NCBI GenBank assembly: GCA_019347945.1
Contig: JAHWKK010000006.1
Span: forward strand, 62,001 to 126,000
DNA: 64,000 nucleotides
Source: Acidobacteriota bacterium
GTDB lineage: Bacteria > Acidobacteriota > Thermoanaerobaculia > Gp7-AA8 > JAHWKK01
Direction of reading: 5' to 3'
Below are positions 1,403-12,482 of this stretch, one piece after another. How positions within the stretch are numbered: position 1 is the first letter of the stretch; each line of letters begins with the position of its first letter. Below the pieces are notes generated by a model. It was not told the origin of the DNA, did not search any database, and was given only the letters and a program-made list of their open reading frames with translations. The position numbers and the translations under genes are program-made.

Positions 1403-1719
1403 CTCTGCCTCCATCAACAAGGTAGCGTCTCGGAGAGCTCCTCGGATCCCTGGTCAGGACCCGGAAACACGCCCGCTCTTCTGTTACGTCTTCACGAGTT
1501 TTCGGTTTTGCCCATCTTACACCGAACGCGCAGAAAAGGACGATTCGCATCGGAGGCGAATGACATCCCGGCCGGCGCCGGCACCCACTTTTTCAGCTGA
1601 ACGGATCAACCACCAATGGCGACAGAATTGATCACCATTTCAATTTCAGGAAACATGCCACTCGGAGCCGACAAAACAGGAGGCGCTCGGAGATCCTCCG
1701 ATTCCGGGTGCAGATCGAC
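1403..1719. other. Intergenic region between divergent genes
   Basis: This stretch of about 317 bases separates the divergent kinase and ABC importer. It must hold promoters for both, but I see no convincing -35/-10 pair, RNA gene or repeat. An AT-richer patch around 1590-1680 is the likeliest promoter region. Confidence 0.4.
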
Positions 1720-2541
1720 ATGAACGCTTCAGAACAGACTGTTCCGGTCAGGAGATCGGTTAGACTCTCCGACCCGATGAGTCTGCGACGCGCCGTCTGG
1801 CGGGCGGCACCCTTCCTATCGATTCCGCTCTTCGTGATCCTCTGGCAGACCGCCGTCATGCTCGACCCTCGCCCGCTCGTTCCCTCGCCCGTCGCGGTGG
1901 CGGCGGGGACGCTCGAGCTTCTGGAGCGCGGGCTGCTGTTCCGATACATCGTCGCCTCTCTTTTCCGCACCACCTGGGGGTATCTGCTTGCGGTCGGACT
2001 CGCCGTCCCGCTCGGCGTCTGGCTCGGCCTCGCACCCCGCGCACGAGCCGCAGCAGGTCCGCTGCTCCAGATCCTCCGGCCGATCTCCGCGCTCGCATGG
2101 ATTCCGCTCGCGATCCTCTGGTTCGGCGTGGGCGATCTCTCCGCGATCTTTCTGATCTTCATCGCGTCGTTTCTCCCGATGATCGCGGTGACGATGCAGG
2201 CGGTGCGTCAGGTCGATCCGGTCTTTCTCGATGCCGGCCGAAACTTCGGACTCGATCGCAATGCCATGGTCCGGCGAATCGTCATTCCCGCGATCCTCCC
2301 CCGCCTCTTCGTCGGTATGCGGATCACGCTCGGCGTGTCCTGGCTCGTCGTCGTCGCCGCCGAAATGATCGCCGTCAATTCCGGACTCGGGTTTCTCATT
2401 ATCGAGGCGCGCAATGCCGGCAATCGCTACGACCTCGTGGTCGCCGGCATGGTGATGATCGGGCTGCTGGGCCTCGTACTCGACCTCGCCATGCGGCGGC
2501 TCGAACGCCTTCCTGCCGTGCGCTGGGGGTACGTCCGATGA
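1720..2541 (+). CDS. ABC transporter permease, NrtB/SsuC/TauC type
   Basis: This is a membrane subunit of an importer of the nitrate/sulfonate/taurine class (BPD_transp_1 fold). About six hydrophobic spans are visible, and the EAA-like loop near residue 190 (FLDAGRNFGLDRNAMVRRIV) contacts the ATPase. The C-terminal third (SWLVVVAAEMIAVNSGLGF, then ARNAGNRYDLVV) is nearly identical to the second permease at 3287, so the two probably arose by duplication and form a heterodimer. ATG 1720 is chosen; GTG 1708 and ATG 1777 are also in frame and no start has an ideal Shine-Dalgarno. The stop overlaps the start of the ATPase gene (ATGA). The substrate cannot be deduced. Confidence 0.88.
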   Translation: MNASEQTVPVRRSVRLSDPMSLRRAVWRAAPFLSIPLFVILWQTAVMLDPRPLVPSPVAVAAGTLELLERGLLFRYIVASLFRTTWGYLLAVGLAVPLGVWLGLAPRARAAAGPLLQILRPISALAWIPLAILWFGVGDLSAIFLIFIASFLPMIAVTMQAVRQVDPVFLDAGRNFGLDRNAMVRRIVIPAILPRLFVGMRITLGVSWLVVVAAEMIAVNSGLGFLIIEARNAGNRYDLVVAGMVMIGLLGLVLDLAMRRLERLPAVRWGYVR

Positions 2542-3290
2542 CGTCTAAAGTGGAGATGGTCGACGTCAATCGGCAATTCCGCACCGACGAGGGGAAGGTG
2601 GAAGCTCTGCGCGACATCCGTCTCTCGGTTCGTGCGGGTGAGCTGATCTGCCTTCTCGGACCGTCCGGTTGCGGGAAATCGACGCTGCTCAACATCGTTG
2701 CCGGATTTCTCGCTCCATCGAGCGGAACCGTCACGATCGACGGGGAGCCGGTGACCGGCCCCGACCGCCGCAGAATCTTCGTCTTTCAGGAGCGCGGCGT
2801 CTTTCCGTGGCTCACAGTCGAGGGAAACATCGCCTTCGGTCTCGACCATCTTCCACCTGCCGAAGCACGCGAACGGATCGCGCACTACATCGCGATGGTC
2901 GGCCTCCGCGGATTCGAGCGCGCTTACCCCCATGAGCTGTCGGGAGGGATGAAACAGCGCGTCGAGGTGGCGCGCGCATTCGCCGTCGATCCGGACGTCC
3001 TCTTCCTCGACGAGCCGTTCGGCGCGCTCGACTCGATCACGCGGCTCCAGATGCGACGCGAGCTGCTTCGGCTCTGGGAGGCCGAACGAAAGACGATTCT
3101 CTTCGTCACTCACGACATCGAGGAGTCGGTTCAGCTCGCCGACAGGGTCGTCGTCATGACTGCGCGCCCCGGCAGGATCCGGCGCATCGTCGAGATCGAC
3201 ATTCCGCACCCGCGCGATCTGAGCGATCCGCGCTATATCGAGCTCCGCGACTCGATCTTCGCGGAGATCGGACTGGCTCATCAGGTATGA
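2538..3290 (+). CDS. ABC transporter ATP-binding protein, SsuB/NrtD/TauB type
   Basis: This 250-residue protein is the ATPase of the importer. The Walker A motif is LLGPSGCGKSTLL, the Q-loop is FVFQERGVFPW, the signature is LSGGMKQRVEVARA, Walker B is DVLFLDEPFGALD, and the H-loop is VTHDIEE. The C-terminal MTARPGRIRRIVEIDIPHPR is typical of the nitrate/sulfonate/taurine class. ATG 2538 overlaps the upstream permease stop, and its own stop overlaps the next permease start by 4 nt, so the genes are translationally coupled. The frame is open upstream, but the sequence before 2538 is antisense-quality and belongs to the permease region. Confidence 0.93.
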   Translation: MTSKVEMVDVNRQFRTDEGKVEALRDIRLSVRAGELICLLGPSGCGKSTLLNIVAGFLAPSSGTVTIDGEPVTGPDRRRIFVFQERGVFPWLTVEGNIAFGLDHLPPAEARERIAHYIAMVGLRGFERAYPHELSGGMKQRVEVARAFAVDPDVLFLDEPFGALDSITRLQMRRELLRLWEAERKTILFVTHDIEESVQLADRVVVMTARPGRIRRIVEIDIPHPRDLSDPRYIELRDSIFAEIGLAHQV

Positions 3291-4051
3291 CCCGCCCGCT
3301 CATCGAACGGATCGCCCTCCCGCTCGGCACCGCCGTCGCAATACTCGTGCTGTGGTCGCTCCTCGTCCGAGCGACCGGCACGCCCGTCTTTCCCTCGCCT
3401 TCCGAGGTCGTCGCCGGATTCGGTGAGCTCGCGCGCCGCGGCGTGCTGCTTTCGTACATCGGTGATTCGCTCCGCCGCGTCGCCATCGGTTTCGGGCTGG
3501 CCATCGCGATCGGAATCCCAATCGGGATTTTTTCCGGATGGTTCGGCCTGCTCGACCGTGCGCTCAATCCGCTCGTCCAGTCGCTGCGACCGATCAGTCC
3601 GCTCGCCTGGATGCCGCTCGCGGTGATCTGGTTCGGCATCGGCGACGCTGCACCGGTGTTCCTCATCTTTCTCGGTGGAGTCTTTCCGCTGATTGTTGCG
3701 GCTGCCGATGGCGTGAGAAACGTTCCCGCGATCTACCTCCGCGCCGGATCCAACTTCGGGCTTTCGACACTCCAGGTCCTCGTTCGCGTAGTCTTCCCCG
3801 CCAGCCTTCCCTCGATCCTGACCGGTCTCCGCATCGCGCTCGGCATCTCCTGGCTGGTGCTCGTCGCGGCCGAAATGATCGCCGTCGATTCCGGACTCGG
3901 CTACCTGATCATCGATGCGCGCAACGCAGGCAAGCGGTACGATCTGGTCGTCACAGGGATGATCCTGATCGGCGTGATCGGGCTCCTGCTCGACACCACC
4001 ACGCGACTGATTGAGCGACTCCCCTCGGTTCGATGGGGATTTCGTGATTAA
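3287..4051 (+). CDS. ABC transporter permease, second NrtB/SsuC-type subunit
   Basis: A 254-residue integral membrane protein that is a clear paralogue of the permease at 1720. Shared landmarks are SLRPISPLAWMPLAVIWFG, SNFGLSTLQVLVRVVFPAS and SWLVLVAAEMIAVDSGLGY, followed by DARNAGKRYDLVV. Two non-identical permeases with one ATPase and one binding protein is less common in this class, where one homodimeric permease is usual; a heterodimeric channel is inferred. ATG 3287 overlaps the ATPase stop. The gene ends 28 bp before the binding-protein start. Confidence 0.9.
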   Translation: MTRPLIERIALPLGTAVAILVLWSLLVRATGTPVFPSPSEVVAGFGELARRGVLLSYIGDSLRRVAIGFGLAIAIGIPIGIFSGWFGLLDRALNPLVQSLRPISPLAWMPLAVIWFGIGDAAPVFLIFLGGVFPLIVAAADGVRNVPAIYLRAGSNFGLSTLQVLVRVVFPASLPSILTGLRIALGISWLVLVAAEMIAVDSGLGYLIIDARNAGKRYDLVVTGMILIGVIGLLLDTTTRLIERLPSVRWGFRD

Positions 4052-4064
4052 TCCGGCCGAATTC

Positions 4065-4072
4065 AAAAGGAG
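4065..4072 (+). promoter_or_regulatory. Strong Shine-Dalgarno for the binding-protein gene
   Basis: AAAAGGAG lies 7 nt before ATG 4080. It fixes translation initiation upstream of the in-frame UGA, so ribosomes are expected to reach the UGA rather than start only downstream of it. Confidence 0.75.
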
Positions 4073-4079
4073 CTGCAGC

Positions 4080-5138
4080 ATGACGATGCGTAAGAAGATG
4101 ATGCTGGCGACGGTTGCATGGGTCAGTCTGGTCACGATCCTCCATGGAGCATGGAACGTGAACTGGTCGGTCGTGATCAACGGGCTCGTTCCTCCGGACG
4201 AGAGAAAGCTCAACGTCGCATACATCCCGGTCACGTGACATCTCGCGTGCCCGGTGACCGACTACATCTCGGCCTACTCGGACCACGGCAATCTTTTCAT
4301 TCCGAGGCTCTTCCAGGGCTTTCCGGAGATCAAAGAGGCGCTGATGTCCGACCGGATCCAGGCGGGATTCATGGTCGCACCGATGGCAATCGCCCTGCGG
4401 GCTCAGGGCGTACCGCTCAGAATCACCTACCTCGGGCATCGTTACGGAAGCGCGGTCGTCGTCGGAAAGGATTCCGACATCCGCTCACCCGCCGATCTCC
4501 GCGGGCGTACGATCGCCATTCCCAGCCGCTTTTCCAATGAACGGCTGATCGTCTACAGGGTCCTGAAGGACTTCGGGATCCCGCCATCGGAGGTGAAGCT
4601 CGTCGAGATGGCACCTCCCGACGTCCCGGCTGCGCTCGCCGCCGGGGCGATCGACGCATTCTCGATGGGCGAACCGTTTCCGTCGCAGGCCGAGATGGCG
4701 GGGTTCGGCCGCGTTCTGTTCCACGCGAAGGACTACTGGCCGGACTACACCTCCTGCGTCCTGGTGGTGAGACAGGACGTGATCGACGAGCGCCCCGAGG
4801 CGGTCCAGATCCTCGTCGACGGGATCGCGCGATCGGGACTCTGGCTCGACGAGGGGAAGAGGAACCGCGAGCACGCTGCCGATTTCGTCGGACGCTACTA
4901 CTACCGCCAGGACCCGACGCTTCTCCGCTGGGCGCTGACGAACCCGCTCGACCGTGTGCGCTATACGCCGCTGACCCCGTACGAGGACGAGTTCGACGAG
5001 ATCGTCGGGCTGATGATCGAGACCGGTGTTCTCGAGCGCCACATCCCCTTTTCGGACTACGTCGACACCCGATTCGCAGAGGGTGCGCGAGAAGAGACCG
5101 CGTGGAGATACGAGCCCGGCAGCGGCAGAGCGGAATGA
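4080..5138 (+). CDS. ABC transporter substrate-binding protein with in-frame UGA (candidate selenoprotein)
   Basis: An NMT1/NrtA/SsuA-like binding protein, 352 residues if UGA 4236-4238 is read through. The N-terminus (KKMMLATVAWVSLVTILHG) is a signal anchor. After LNVAYIPVT comes the UGA (residue 53), then HLACPVTDYISAYSDHG and an intact 300-codon remainder with typical motifs (IQAGFMVAPMAIALRAQG, DLRGRTIAIPSR, AAGAIDAFSMGEPFP). Both parts are in the same frame and only that codon interrupts them. From memory, relatives carry a Cys at this place (TCHLTCPV-like), which would make UGA a Sec codon; this needs an alignment. Alternatives are a nonsense mutation or sequencing error of TGC, or a pseudogene. 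It closes the four-gene importer operon. Confidence 0.8.
4236..4238 (+). other. In-frame UGA, candidate selenocysteine codon
   Basis: The codon lies between ACG (Thr) and CAT (His), four codons before TGC (Cys 57), giving a U-x-x-x-C arrangement. Upstream and downstream codons share one frame (4080, 4236 and 5136 are all in phase). One base change would give TGC. Confidence 0.6.
4249..4273 (+). promoter_or_regulatory. Weak hairpin where a bacterial SECIS would lie
   Basis: Bases 4249-4254 can pair imperfectly with 4268-4273, leaving a 13-nt loop that starts 17 nt after the UGA and has G at its second position. A competing 4-bp stem pairs 4258-4261 with 4269-4272. Neither is a textbook bSECIS; drawn by eye only. 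Confidence 0.2.
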
Positions 5139-7693: not shown

Positions 7694-8374
7694 TCAACCG
7701 CAGACGTCGAAATACCCGAGAAGATCGCTGATGGCGTCGGGGTCACCGACTGTTCCTTCGAGATCGCTCCCGGTGACCGTCGTCTCGGAATCGCGGCGCT
7801 GAAACCACACGCCCCACCGCTCCCGATCATCGTCGCAAGGGATCGTCATCAGTGTGAAGAGCGCCGGAAGCGCCACGTCAGATTCGCTGATCTCTCCCTC
7901 CCTCACAGAGTAGGGTACGGTGCGACCGTCGACCTCCACGGTCGATTCGAGGAGAAGCTCGTCGGTACGGATTCGCGTCCCCATCTCGTCGAGAACATTT
8001 CCAGCGGTTCCCGCGACGTAAGCATCGACCTTCGACTCGCCGCCCCGGATCGATTCGTTGTAGACGAAGCCTCGGGTTGCCTCCGCAAATCCGTCAGGAT
8101 GGTCGGCGACCCTCGCCGAACGGACGAGACCCATCGAAATGCTGAATCCCGCGTGATACCCGGGCGGGAGGGAGGTCCCTCCGAGGATCTCCTTTGCCTT
8201 CTGCTCGCGCATTTCGGGATTCGACTGCTCCTCGACCATCGAAGCGAGCTTGCCGCTTCCCCAGTACATGGCGCCGATCACCAGTGCGACAGCAAGGAGG
8301 ATGAGCAGCAGACAACCCCCGAGAAGCCAGATCCAGACCGGTCGCTTCGAGCGCTCCTGCACGACGCGAATCAT
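7694..8374 (-). CDS. Membrane-anchored protein of unknown function
   Basis: 226 residues with one N-terminal transmembrane segment (WIWLLGGCLLLILLAVALVI, residues ~14-33) and an extracytoplasmic domain. The domain has a beta-rich look (YHAGFSISMGLVRSARVA, STVEVDGRTVPYSVREGE) and ends in DLLGYFDVCG. No family is recognised. ATG 8374 is preferred; a TTG at 8401 in the same frame would overlap the upstream kinase stop and suggests tight coupling. It lies downstream of the kinase gene on the same strand, so it may be co-expressed with it. Confidence 0.65.
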   Translation of the reverse strand: MIRVVQERSKRPVWIWLLGGCLLLILLAVALVIGAMYWGSGKLASMVEEQSNPEMREQKAKEILGGTSLPPGYHAGFSISMGLVRSARVADHPDGFAEATRGFVYNESIRGGESKVDAYVAGTAGNVLDEMGTRIRTDELLLESTVEVDGRTVPYSVREGEISESDVALPALFTLMTIPCDDDRERWGVWFQRRDSETTVTGSDLEGTVGDPDAISDLLGYFDVCG

Positions 8375-8397
8375 ACCGCAGGGAGTCGGCGATGCGG

Positions 8398-9822
8398 TCA
8401 ACCCTGGGTGGCGATGGTTTCCACTGGCCGGGAGTCATCCAGACCATCATCGGGAGCGCCCGTAGGTGCTGCCGGAAGCTCGAATGCGAACAGGGCCCCG
8501 CCGCCGACGAGGTTGTCCACCTCGATCGATCCACCATGAGCCTCGACGATCGCGCGCGCGATCTTCAGGCCGAGTCCCGCCCCGAGATGCGCCGTCTTCT
8601 TCGCCTGCCAGAACGGATCGAACAGATGAGGGAGATCCGCGGGCGCGATTCCAGGGCCGTTGTCGCACACCTCGAAACGGATGATGCGATCGCGCCGGAC
8701 GAGCGAGACCCGAACCATCCCCCCGGAGGGGGTGAACTTGAACGCGTTTCCAATGAGGTTTCCCAGGGCCTGCGCGAGCCGGTCGGGGTCTCCCATGATC
8801 TCCGGCAGAGTTTCATCGATCGAAGTCTCGAGCTGAATCTCCTTCGAATCGGCGATCGGCTCGTGCCCTGCCACGACCTCCTTCACGACTTCCGCCGGTT
8901 TGACCAAGTCACGGCGGATTTGAAGCGCACCGTGATCGATTTTCGTCACGTCCAGGAGATCTCGGATGAGCCGCTCCATCCGTCCGGTCGTCGTGAGGAT
9001 CGTCTCAACATGCTCGGCTCGCTCCTCGGGCGACGCGTCCGGGAGGAGCTCGGCGCTCAGGGCGATCGTCGTGAGCGGGCTTCTGAGATCATGGGAGACG
9101 ACTCCGAGAATCTCATCGCGCATCCGTACGAGGTCCTGCTCGCGCTCGAGCGCGCCCTGCCGTGCATCCGACTCTTCCTCGAGCATCGAAGCGAGCTGGC
9201 GGAGACGCGCGATGATCCAGATCACCACCAGTGCGGCACCCATTGCCATTAGAACCAGCCCGACCGTCAGCCAGACCTGGATCTGAGTGAGGCGCTCGAC
9301 TTGCTGACGCCGACCCGCCTGAACGCGCGTGATCGATTCGTCGAGTCGTCGGATCGCTTCGATCACATCCGGATAATTCGATTCGAAAGCGAGGCGTTGC
9401 GAGTCGACACTCCGCTGCACCGAGAGATGCCACAGCTCGAGACGATTCCCGAGCTCCTCGAGACGCATCTGGTATTCGGAGCCCAGGCGCCCGCGATGTG
9501 CCTGCAGAATTCGCATGGCCGCTCGCTGCGGCTCGATGGCCCTGCGATATCGTTCGGTCGACTGGGGAGCACCGGATGCAGCCGCGCGCGTCAGCGATGC
9601 GATCTGCTCGCTCATCCGGAAGCTGATCTCGTTGAGTGCCGCTCGGGCGGGGTCGGCGTGCTGCTCGAGCTCATCACGGATTCCCTCCATTCGCTGGTTC
9701 AGCAGGATCGGAAGCGTGACGAGCGCAGCGAGCGAAATGACGACAACGCTGGCGGCCGCAATCATCAGGGCTGCGGATGGACGTCGACGGTCCTCGAGTG
9801 CCGCGGATTGACGACCATTCAT
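8398..9822 (-). CDS. Sensor histidine kinase
   Basis: 474 residues. A transmembrane segment at ~18-40, a helical periplasmic region (41-182), and a second span at ~183-207 give a classic two-pass sensor. The HAMP-like/coiled linker leads into HisKA (GVVSHDLRSPL, His 244). The catalytic ATPase has an N-box (NLIGNAFKFTP), G1 (CDNGPGIAP), F-box (LFDPFW) and G2 (LGAGLGLKIARA). The periplasmic part is a long helical bundle of the four-helix type seen in CHASE3 or Tar-like sensors. No cognate response regulator is adjacent. The signal is unknown. Confidence 0.92.
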   Translation of the reverse strand: MNGRQSAALEDRRRPSAALMIAAASVVVISLAALVTLPILLNQRMEGIRDELEQHADPARAALNEISFRMSEQIASLTRAAASGAPQSTERYRRAIEPQRAAMRILQAHRGRLGSEYQMRLEELGNRLELWHLSVQRSVDSQRLAFESNYPDVIEAIRRLDESITRVQAGRRQQVERLTQIQVWLTVGLVLMAMGAALVVIWIIARLRQLASMLEEESDARQGALEREQDLVRMRDEILGVVSHDLRSPLTTIALSAELLPDASPEERAEHVETILTTTGRMERLIRDLLDVTKIDHGALQIRRDLVKPAEVVKEVVAGHEPIADSKEIQLETSIDETLPEIMGDPDRLAQALGNLIGNAFKFTPSGGMVRVSLVRRDRIIRFEVCDNGPGIAPADLPHLFDPFWQAKKTAHLGAGLGLKIARAIVEAHGGSIEVDNLVGGGALFAFELPAAPTGAPDDGLDDSRPVETIATQG

Positions 9823-11645: not shown

Positions 11646-11960
11646 ACCGGCCGCCATCTGGCTGCCGCCCATTTCCGACGGGACAATCCGGCATAACAGC
11701 CAGCAGCGAAAAAATCCACCATCCACATTCTCCCCTTCCCGATCGCCCAATTTCGGGTTACGATCCCGCTCGCCATTCGACGATCGTAAGAGGTCAGGGA
11801 GGTCCTTCGATGAATCGGAATCCGAGTCGGCTTGTCCCACCAGCGCGATCCGACGTGTTCGCCCCGTCGCCTCGCCTCACCATCGCATTGATTTCGTCCG
11901 CCAACCAGAGGCGGATCGACTAGAGAAGGGCCGCTGACCACGGCAGAAAGGATCATTTCC
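11646..11960. other. Intergenic region with one possible tiny ORF
   Basis: About 315 bases between the toxin and a lipoprotein gene. The stretch 11710-11790 is AT-richer than its surroundings and likely carries the lipoprotein promoter. The only coding possibility is the 37-codon frame at 11810. Confidence 0.4.
11810..11923 (+). CDS. Possible 37-residue leader or small protein
   Basis: ATG 11810 has GGGAGG about 7 nt upstream and runs 37 codons to TAG (MNRNPSRLVPPARS at its start). It is basic and has no recognised motif. It precedes the lipoprotein gene by 37 bp, so it could be a leader, or just chance. Confidence 0.25.
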   Translation: MNRNPSRLVPPARSDVFAPSPRLTIALISSANQRRID

Positions 11961-12482
11961 ATGAAATCGATTCAGACAACACTCATCGGACTCACAACTC
12001 TGTTTCTCGTCGCCTCCTGCGCATCGGTACCGATTACAACGGCAGTGGAGGTTCCCCCCGGATCGGAGATCGGGATCATCTCGCTTCGCGACTGTGTGAT
12101 CACGGGACAGGAAGAGGACTGCACCGGTTCGGGAGAGCAGGCAGCGGAGGCATTCGCGGAGGCGTTCAATGAAGGAACGTTCGAGGCCCGCGTGCTCGAT
12201 CGGCCAGTTGCCGACAACATGGTCCTCAGCGACGAGGAAGCCGCCGAGTATGGGCGGGCGCAGGGCGTCGAGTACGTCATCAACGGCGAGGTCGACGACT
12301 TCTATTCGGTGGCCGCGATGACCTTCCGAAGCGACCGCGCCGCCGTGTCGGTCCGTCTGATCCGAACCTCCGACGGGCTCGTCGTCACTTCGTACAGCCG
12401 ACCGGGAGTGGCGAGCAGTAACTTCGTGACGCCAAAGGGAATGATCAAGGATCTCGCGATCGAGCTTCGCAACGCGCTCTGA
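11961..12482 (+). CDS. Lipoprotein of unknown function (DUF4823-like)
   Basis: 173 residues with a lipobox (LFLVASCAS, Cys ~20). The mature part resembles lipoproteins with an LpoB/CsgG-like alpha-beta fold: a strand IGIISLRDC, a helix AAEAFAEAFNEG, then RAQGVEYVINGEVDDF and a last strand pair (AVSVRLIRTSDGLVVTS). Two Cys (DCVITGQEEDC) may form a disulfide. Such folds often act in envelope complexes; the partner here is unknown. It ends at a strong hairpin. Confidence 0.65.
   Translation: MKSIQTTLIGLTTLFLVASCASVPITTAVEVPPGSEIGIISLRDCVITGQEEDCTGSGEQAAEAFAEAFNEGTFEARVLDRPVADNMVLSDEEAAEYGRAQGVEYVINGEVDDFYSVAAMTFRSDRAAVSVRLIRTSDGLVVTSYSRPGVASSNFVTPKGMIKDLAIELRNAL

Follow-up and report, generated by a model that had tools for sequence, protein, structure and literature searches.

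The gene at positions 4080..5138 (+ strand) of the window, the 64,000-nucleotide stretch of DNA that was analyzed, almost certainly encodes a genuine selenoprotein, with selenocysteine (Sec) inserted at UGA codon 53. The product is a receptor with the NitT/TauT (NMT1/SsuA) fold, and the selenoprotein family to which it belongs is real and new, though of a kind already known, and has a Sec site of its own. The fullest explanation, that this selenoprotein serves a two-permease importer of the NitT/TauT type as its receptor, that the cargo is a soft metal or organometal, and that Sec acts as a ligand to it, is the favored one and is considered probable as a whole, with clearly less assurance than the Sec reading itself.

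The gene encodes an ABC substrate-binding protein of 352 aa, including an N-terminal membrane helix (residues 3-26), and has 63 relatives at 44-72% identity. Its ATG at 4080 follows the ribosome-binding site AAAAGGAG (4065..4072, + strand) with a 7-nt spacing, in line with the original prediction of a well-initiated gene. Translation meets just one TGA in frame, at codon 53 (4236..4238, + strand), and then, in the open frame that had been predicted, 299 more sense codons up to the terminal TGA (5136-5138). Since TGA is thus also the normal stop of this gene, a global reassignment of the codon is not the explanation. The residue lies in the context YIPVT-U-HLACPVTD, which contains the U-x-x-x-C pair reported earlier; the second residue of the pair is the invariant Cys57 (codon 4248..4250, + strand). 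The NMT1/NrtA-like motifs claimed for the protein are likewise borne out by a match to NMT1_2 (PF13379; 9.7e-32). An ORF at 4254-5138 is also present, so that translation might stop at codon 53 and begin again at the GTG at 4254, yielding a 294-aa protein without the signal or the first strand. This split expression is scarcely credible: the reading frame is conserved over the 52 residues upstream of the TGA, where W14, H22, and N26 do not vary, the short form would have neither the export signal nor the first β strand, and the Cys orthologues make the full protein.

The strongest evidence for Sec comes from the relatives. A scan of GTDB genomes yielded 73 loci, of which 63 cover residue 53; the codon is TGA in 15/63 and a Cys codon (TGC or TGT) in 48/63, with no other residue at any of them (0/63). 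The expectation that relatives would carry either Cys or UGA at this residue is therefore satisfied, and only these two states occur at the position in all members of the family. TGA in the relatives is confined to this one column, which is otherwise invariantly Cys and is surrounded by the near-fixed motif PVT-[U/C]-[H/Q]-L-[A/T]-CPV. A further 10 loci with TGA came from searching the relatives of the window genome, though part of these belong to species that the count above already includes. The family is distributed over Acidobacteriota and Myxococcota, the TGA form being shared between lineages of both, and splits into two deep clades, the second of which also includes TGA at residue 53 (L057, L058, L124, and L136); once duplicates are removed, the set comprises 19 Sec and 56 Cys sequences. 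On the maximum-likelihood tree the state changes between Sec and Cys about seven times, with at least three of these changes forced by well-supported branches, and even a close pair may differ (L018 with TGA, L055 with Cys). That the same sulfur/selenium swap recurs in dozens of related bacteria indicates that the Sec reading is real. One locus (L053), whose record is titled Comamonas sp. KCTC 72670, clusters tightly with a Myxococcus on the family tree, and the record is possibly misnamed. A search of plasmids returned distant receptors only, all below 60% identity overall and at 24-30% among the matches listed.

The codons downstream of the TGA evolve as coding sequence. Between the window gene and the TGA-bearing orthologues pS is 0.51-0.67 and pN 0.16-0.24, and over all comparisons between TGA-bearing orthologues the values are 0.42-0.78 and 0.03-0.24. 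Because pN is far below pS after the TGA, these codons are translated and under selection. The original prediction had kept mutation, sequencing error, and pseudogene as alternatives, and a draft genome in 49 contigs, the frequency of single stops during gene decay, and the lack of a clear SECIS might all be read in that direction. These alternatives fail, as TGA is found at the same codon in 15 independent loci and in more of the relatives, the operon is intact, purifying selection past the TGA is strong, and the Sec machinery is present in the genome. Hardly any probability is thus left for a recent nonsense mutation, for decay into a pseudogene, or for an error of sequencing, and error, pseudogene, and reassigned code can be considered excluded for practical purposes.

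The machinery for Sec incorporation is encoded in the window genome, a draft assembly of 3.72 Mb from a soil-type bacterium that is 99.65% complete. As the earlier proposal to look for sel genes anticipated, all the components are found: selA (453 bits), selB (355 bits), selD (L109, G000:C24:388-1335; 353 bits), and tRNA-Sec (68.9 bits; gathering score 47). The selD gene has its own TGA, in SGG-U-ACKLG, which is the known Sec form, and is thus itself a selenoprotein gene. Across the family, selB scores above its cut-off in 15/15 TGA genomes vs. 23/30 Cys genomes (Fisher p = 0.077), a correlation that is weak taken alone because most Cys genomes carry selB too. Many relatives use Cys despite an intact selB, so the receptor can evidently function without Sec.

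The SECIS element, which had been suggested for 4236-4285, is not demonstrable by folding. The region where a bacterial SECIS is expected (4239..4290, + strand) shows no significant hairpin, and the 55 nt that follow the TGA in the window fold no better than shuffled sequences (z = -0.03). Across the sequences compared, folding after residue 53 is not stronger in the Sec set (median -9.6 kcal/mol) than in the Cys set (median -10.25 kcal/mol; p = 0.71). Rfam scans of the window and of one clade-2 locus returned nothing at gathering scores. In clade 2, the UGA is followed by a 7-bp hairpin, GGUCACC-AGUUG-GGUGACC (L058, L124, and L136; 6 bp in L057), with a G in the loop about 21 nt past the UGA and z values of -0.5 to -1.7. 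This hairpin looks like a bacterial SECIS and is a good candidate. At its position the four clade-2 Sec proteins (L057, L058, L124, and L136) read PVTSWVT, vs. PVTDFAT or PVTDYAT in Cys relatives, as if the protein sequence had been shaped by the SECIS. Codons +4 and +5 of the Sec forms are nearly fixed as TGC and CCG; this third-base constraint downstream of the TGA is suggestive, although confounded by relatedness and G+C.

The AlphaFold model of the receptor is bilobal, with the N-terminal helix at residues 3-26 and a mean pLDDT of 84.7; loop 51-70, which holds Sec, is its least certain part except for the extreme C-terminus. In the N-terminal segment (residues 1-26, window 4080-4160), Trp14, His22, and Asn26 are invariant across the family, which is odd for a cleaved signal peptide, and the helix may be retained as an anchor. 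Sequence comparison (9.5e-37) and fold comparison (TM 0.73/0.87, the 0.87 on the target) agree on the closest solved structure, 3un6, an ABC ligand-binding component from Staphylococcus aureus whose title names bound zinc; fold matches also include SsuA and TauA. The structure 3un6 has been called a metal-binding protein, and nickel import has been proposed for related transporters near CO dehydrogenases (PMC6344411). The zinc in 3un6 may itself be a crystallization ion.

Four residues, U/C53, C57, H120, and C226, are invariant in 64 family sequences. His120 belongs to an LGHR motif (codon 4437..4439, + strand) and Cys226 to an SCVLV motif (codon 4755..4757, + strand). When 3un6 is aligned to the window protein, positions 53 and 120 are both His and position 226 is Cys: its PIT-H aligns with PVT-U, its GHH with GHR, and its CCVLV with SCVLV. 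The two proteins differ in that 3un6 has His rather than Sec or Cys at 53 and is without Cys57; they share 24% identity. In the outgroup proteins L125 and L137, position 53 is Thr, position 120 is Asn, and the Cys near 226 is shifted, indicating that the set of residues was lost together. Residues 53, 57, 120, and 226 are proposed to form one site.

The receptor gene is the last of an ABC operon, all on the + strand. Upstream of it lie a first permease (1708..2541, 277 aa; best NCBIfam model SaoP, 154 bits, under the cut-off of 295), an ATPase with an inferred start codon (2538..3290, 250 aa; SaoA, 238.7 bits, under the cut-off of 360), and a second permease (3287..4051, 254 aa; SaoP, 185 bits, again under 295). 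For the ATPase, SaoA was the best match out of 187 NCBIfam families compared. The ATPase stop (3290) overlaps the start of the second permease (3287), which agrees with the translationally coupled operon of two permeases and an ATPase in the original prediction, and the order permease-ATPase-permease-binding protein (P-A-P-S) is kept in relatives.

No metal-related genes adjoin the operon in the window genome. Such genes are found near the orthologues: at 26 Acidobacteriota-type loci, all of them Cys loci, a ~100-aa exported MerP-like HMA protein (GFTCITCAVGLE) is encoded in the vicinity of the receptor gene, immediately downstream in nearly all cases and mostly 20-60 nt after it (L008, L013-L017, L020, L022, and L023 are among the loci with this neighbor). 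The neighbor scores 24.0-24.4 bits against Pfam, just below the gathering score of 24.8, and matches NCBIfam MerTP at 1.3e-10. It is confined to Cys loci and was not seen beside any Sec gene. In many cases the HMA gene is followed by one for a DUF169 protein, which occurs at 14 loci. Apart from the ABC, HMA, and DUF169 genes, neighbor clusters were discarded as short-range synteny or spurious frames.

The window genome itself harbors mer-like genes elsewhere. An island on another contig combines genes for a flavoprotein disulfide reductase and a MerT-like protein with two HMA genes, each of the latter with an in-frame TGA in its metal motif (L149, G000:C8:97000-112500; 8201-8722 on the - strand and 11707-12249 on the + strand). 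The motif of both is TIFGMD-U-AVCAHAVRVAL, their scores are below the cut-offs of existing models, and they are probably further selenoproteins with Sec at a metal site. A MerB-family (PF03243) protein is encoded on a further contig (L150, G000:C44:781-1146); it has an N-terminal helix-turn-helix part and an SSCGCC motif, and reaches 49 bits against SaoL (cut-off 140).

Uptake of a soft metal or organometal is favored by the likeness to SaoA and SaoP together with the HMA neighbors of the Cys relatives and the mer-like genes of the window genome. In the proposed mechanism the receptor would be periplasmic, anchored in the membrane, and would serve an ABC importer of the NitT/TauT type with two permeases. 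The ligand cleft would be lined by Cys57, His120, Cys226, and Sec53 (a Cys in most relatives), and these four residues would hold either a metal ion that is soft and thiophilic or a small organometal. The lobes would then close and present the ligand to the permeases, and the ATPase would power import. The leading guess for the ligand is a mercury-type one, with copper or nickel as possible alternatives; import would presumably serve either detoxification or use.

The U/C pair had been described at the outset as redox- or metal-like, and the metal half of that description is now better supported than the redox half. A selenoprotein could nevertheless use U-x-x-x-C as a redox (thiol/selenol-disulfide) or covalent-capture site, binding an oxidized sulfur or selenium compound or forming a mixed disulfide. 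Bacterial selenoproteins are mostly thought to be redox proteins (PMC13188914), the sulfonate receptors SsuA and TauA belong to the same fold family, and U53 and C57 are near each other in sequence. Such a site would account less well for the invariance of His120 and Cys226, the metal bound in 3un6 with His at 53, the joint loss of Cys53 and His120 in the outgroup, and the heavy-metal gene next to the Cys orthologues, and this explanation is rated unlikely, albeit well above those that deny the selenoprotein. A wider proposal is put forward tentatively, at slightly under an even chance: Sec would be a direct soft-metal or organometal ligand in the receptor of an importer separate from the SAO system and found in Acidobacteriota and Myxococcota, and this importer, along with the MerP-like Sec proteins of the window genome, would belong to a strategy of capturing and importing metals by means of selenium.

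Selenocysteine is usually catalytic, and to our knowledge receptors in which it binds the transported ligand are rare and known from prediction alone; the present family adds to the few known Sec-containing transport receptors. The family is broad, with two deep clades, repeated switches, and no fewer than 19 Sec and 56 Cys sequences that are distinct, and it offers natural matched pairs for asking what selenium contributes to ligand or metal binding; because the closest solved structure carries zinc, the nature of the ligand is open to direct test. Annotation pipelines that lack a model for the family will break such genes at the TGA.

The original prediction knew of no selenoprotein among binding proteins of this class, a statement that no longer holds: SaoX (U-x-P), SaoB (CUxxT), and BtuF (CxxU) have already been described as Sec-containing ABC receptors among 119 families (PMC13188914). 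The window family is absent from this 119-family 2026 inventory, and no model in NCBIfam release 20.0 (June 2026) covers the window protein above its cut-off. As far as the account in PMC13188914 goes, exactly eight families are credited to Haft & Gwadz 2023 and the window family is not one of them. The protein is set apart from SaoB and BtuF by motif only, and the original SAO papers may conceivably contain an earlier mention of the family.

The nearest known relation is the SAO system (SaoX/SaoP/SaoA; Haft & Gwadz 2023, as presented in PMC13188914), likewise an ABC importer with a Sec receptor and sharing the NitT/TauT fold. Since SaoX is a Sec-type ABC receptor and SaoA and SaoP are the top-scoring models for the ATPase and both permeases, albeit all below the curated cut-offs, the window protein might simply be the SaoX of such a system. 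This identity is most improbable and was rejected: the protein scores 69 bits against SaoX (NF040735), far under the cut-off of 300, and its Sec site differs. The sole C-x-P (C-D-P) of three true SaoX proteins, which probably corresponds to the reported U-x-P motif as judged by alignment, falls on Gly197 of the window protein (Gly197-Glu-Pro), and position 53 in SaoX is His or Met. SaoX would thus carry its Sec or Cys in a C/U-D-P motif, in contrast to residue 53 here. No linked saoL, saoT, or saoC was seen at the window locus, and the SaoX proteins compared are from Clostridia, whereas the window family is found in Acidobacteriota and Myxococcota.

SsuA, TauA, and NrtA (TIGR01728, PF13379) share the overall fold and family, the window protein reaching 119.8 bits against SsuA_fam (cut-off 163.5). 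Their cargo is organic sulfonates or nitrate, and the window protein differs from them in its additional invariant U/C53, C57, H120, and C226. The Sec MerP-like, UxxU, and MerT/CopZ proteins (NF041115, NF045683), two predicted examples of which are encoded in the same genome, resemble the window protein in that Sec sits at a heavy-metal motif, a putative one in the latter; they are small HMA domains, whereas the window protein is an ABC receptor.
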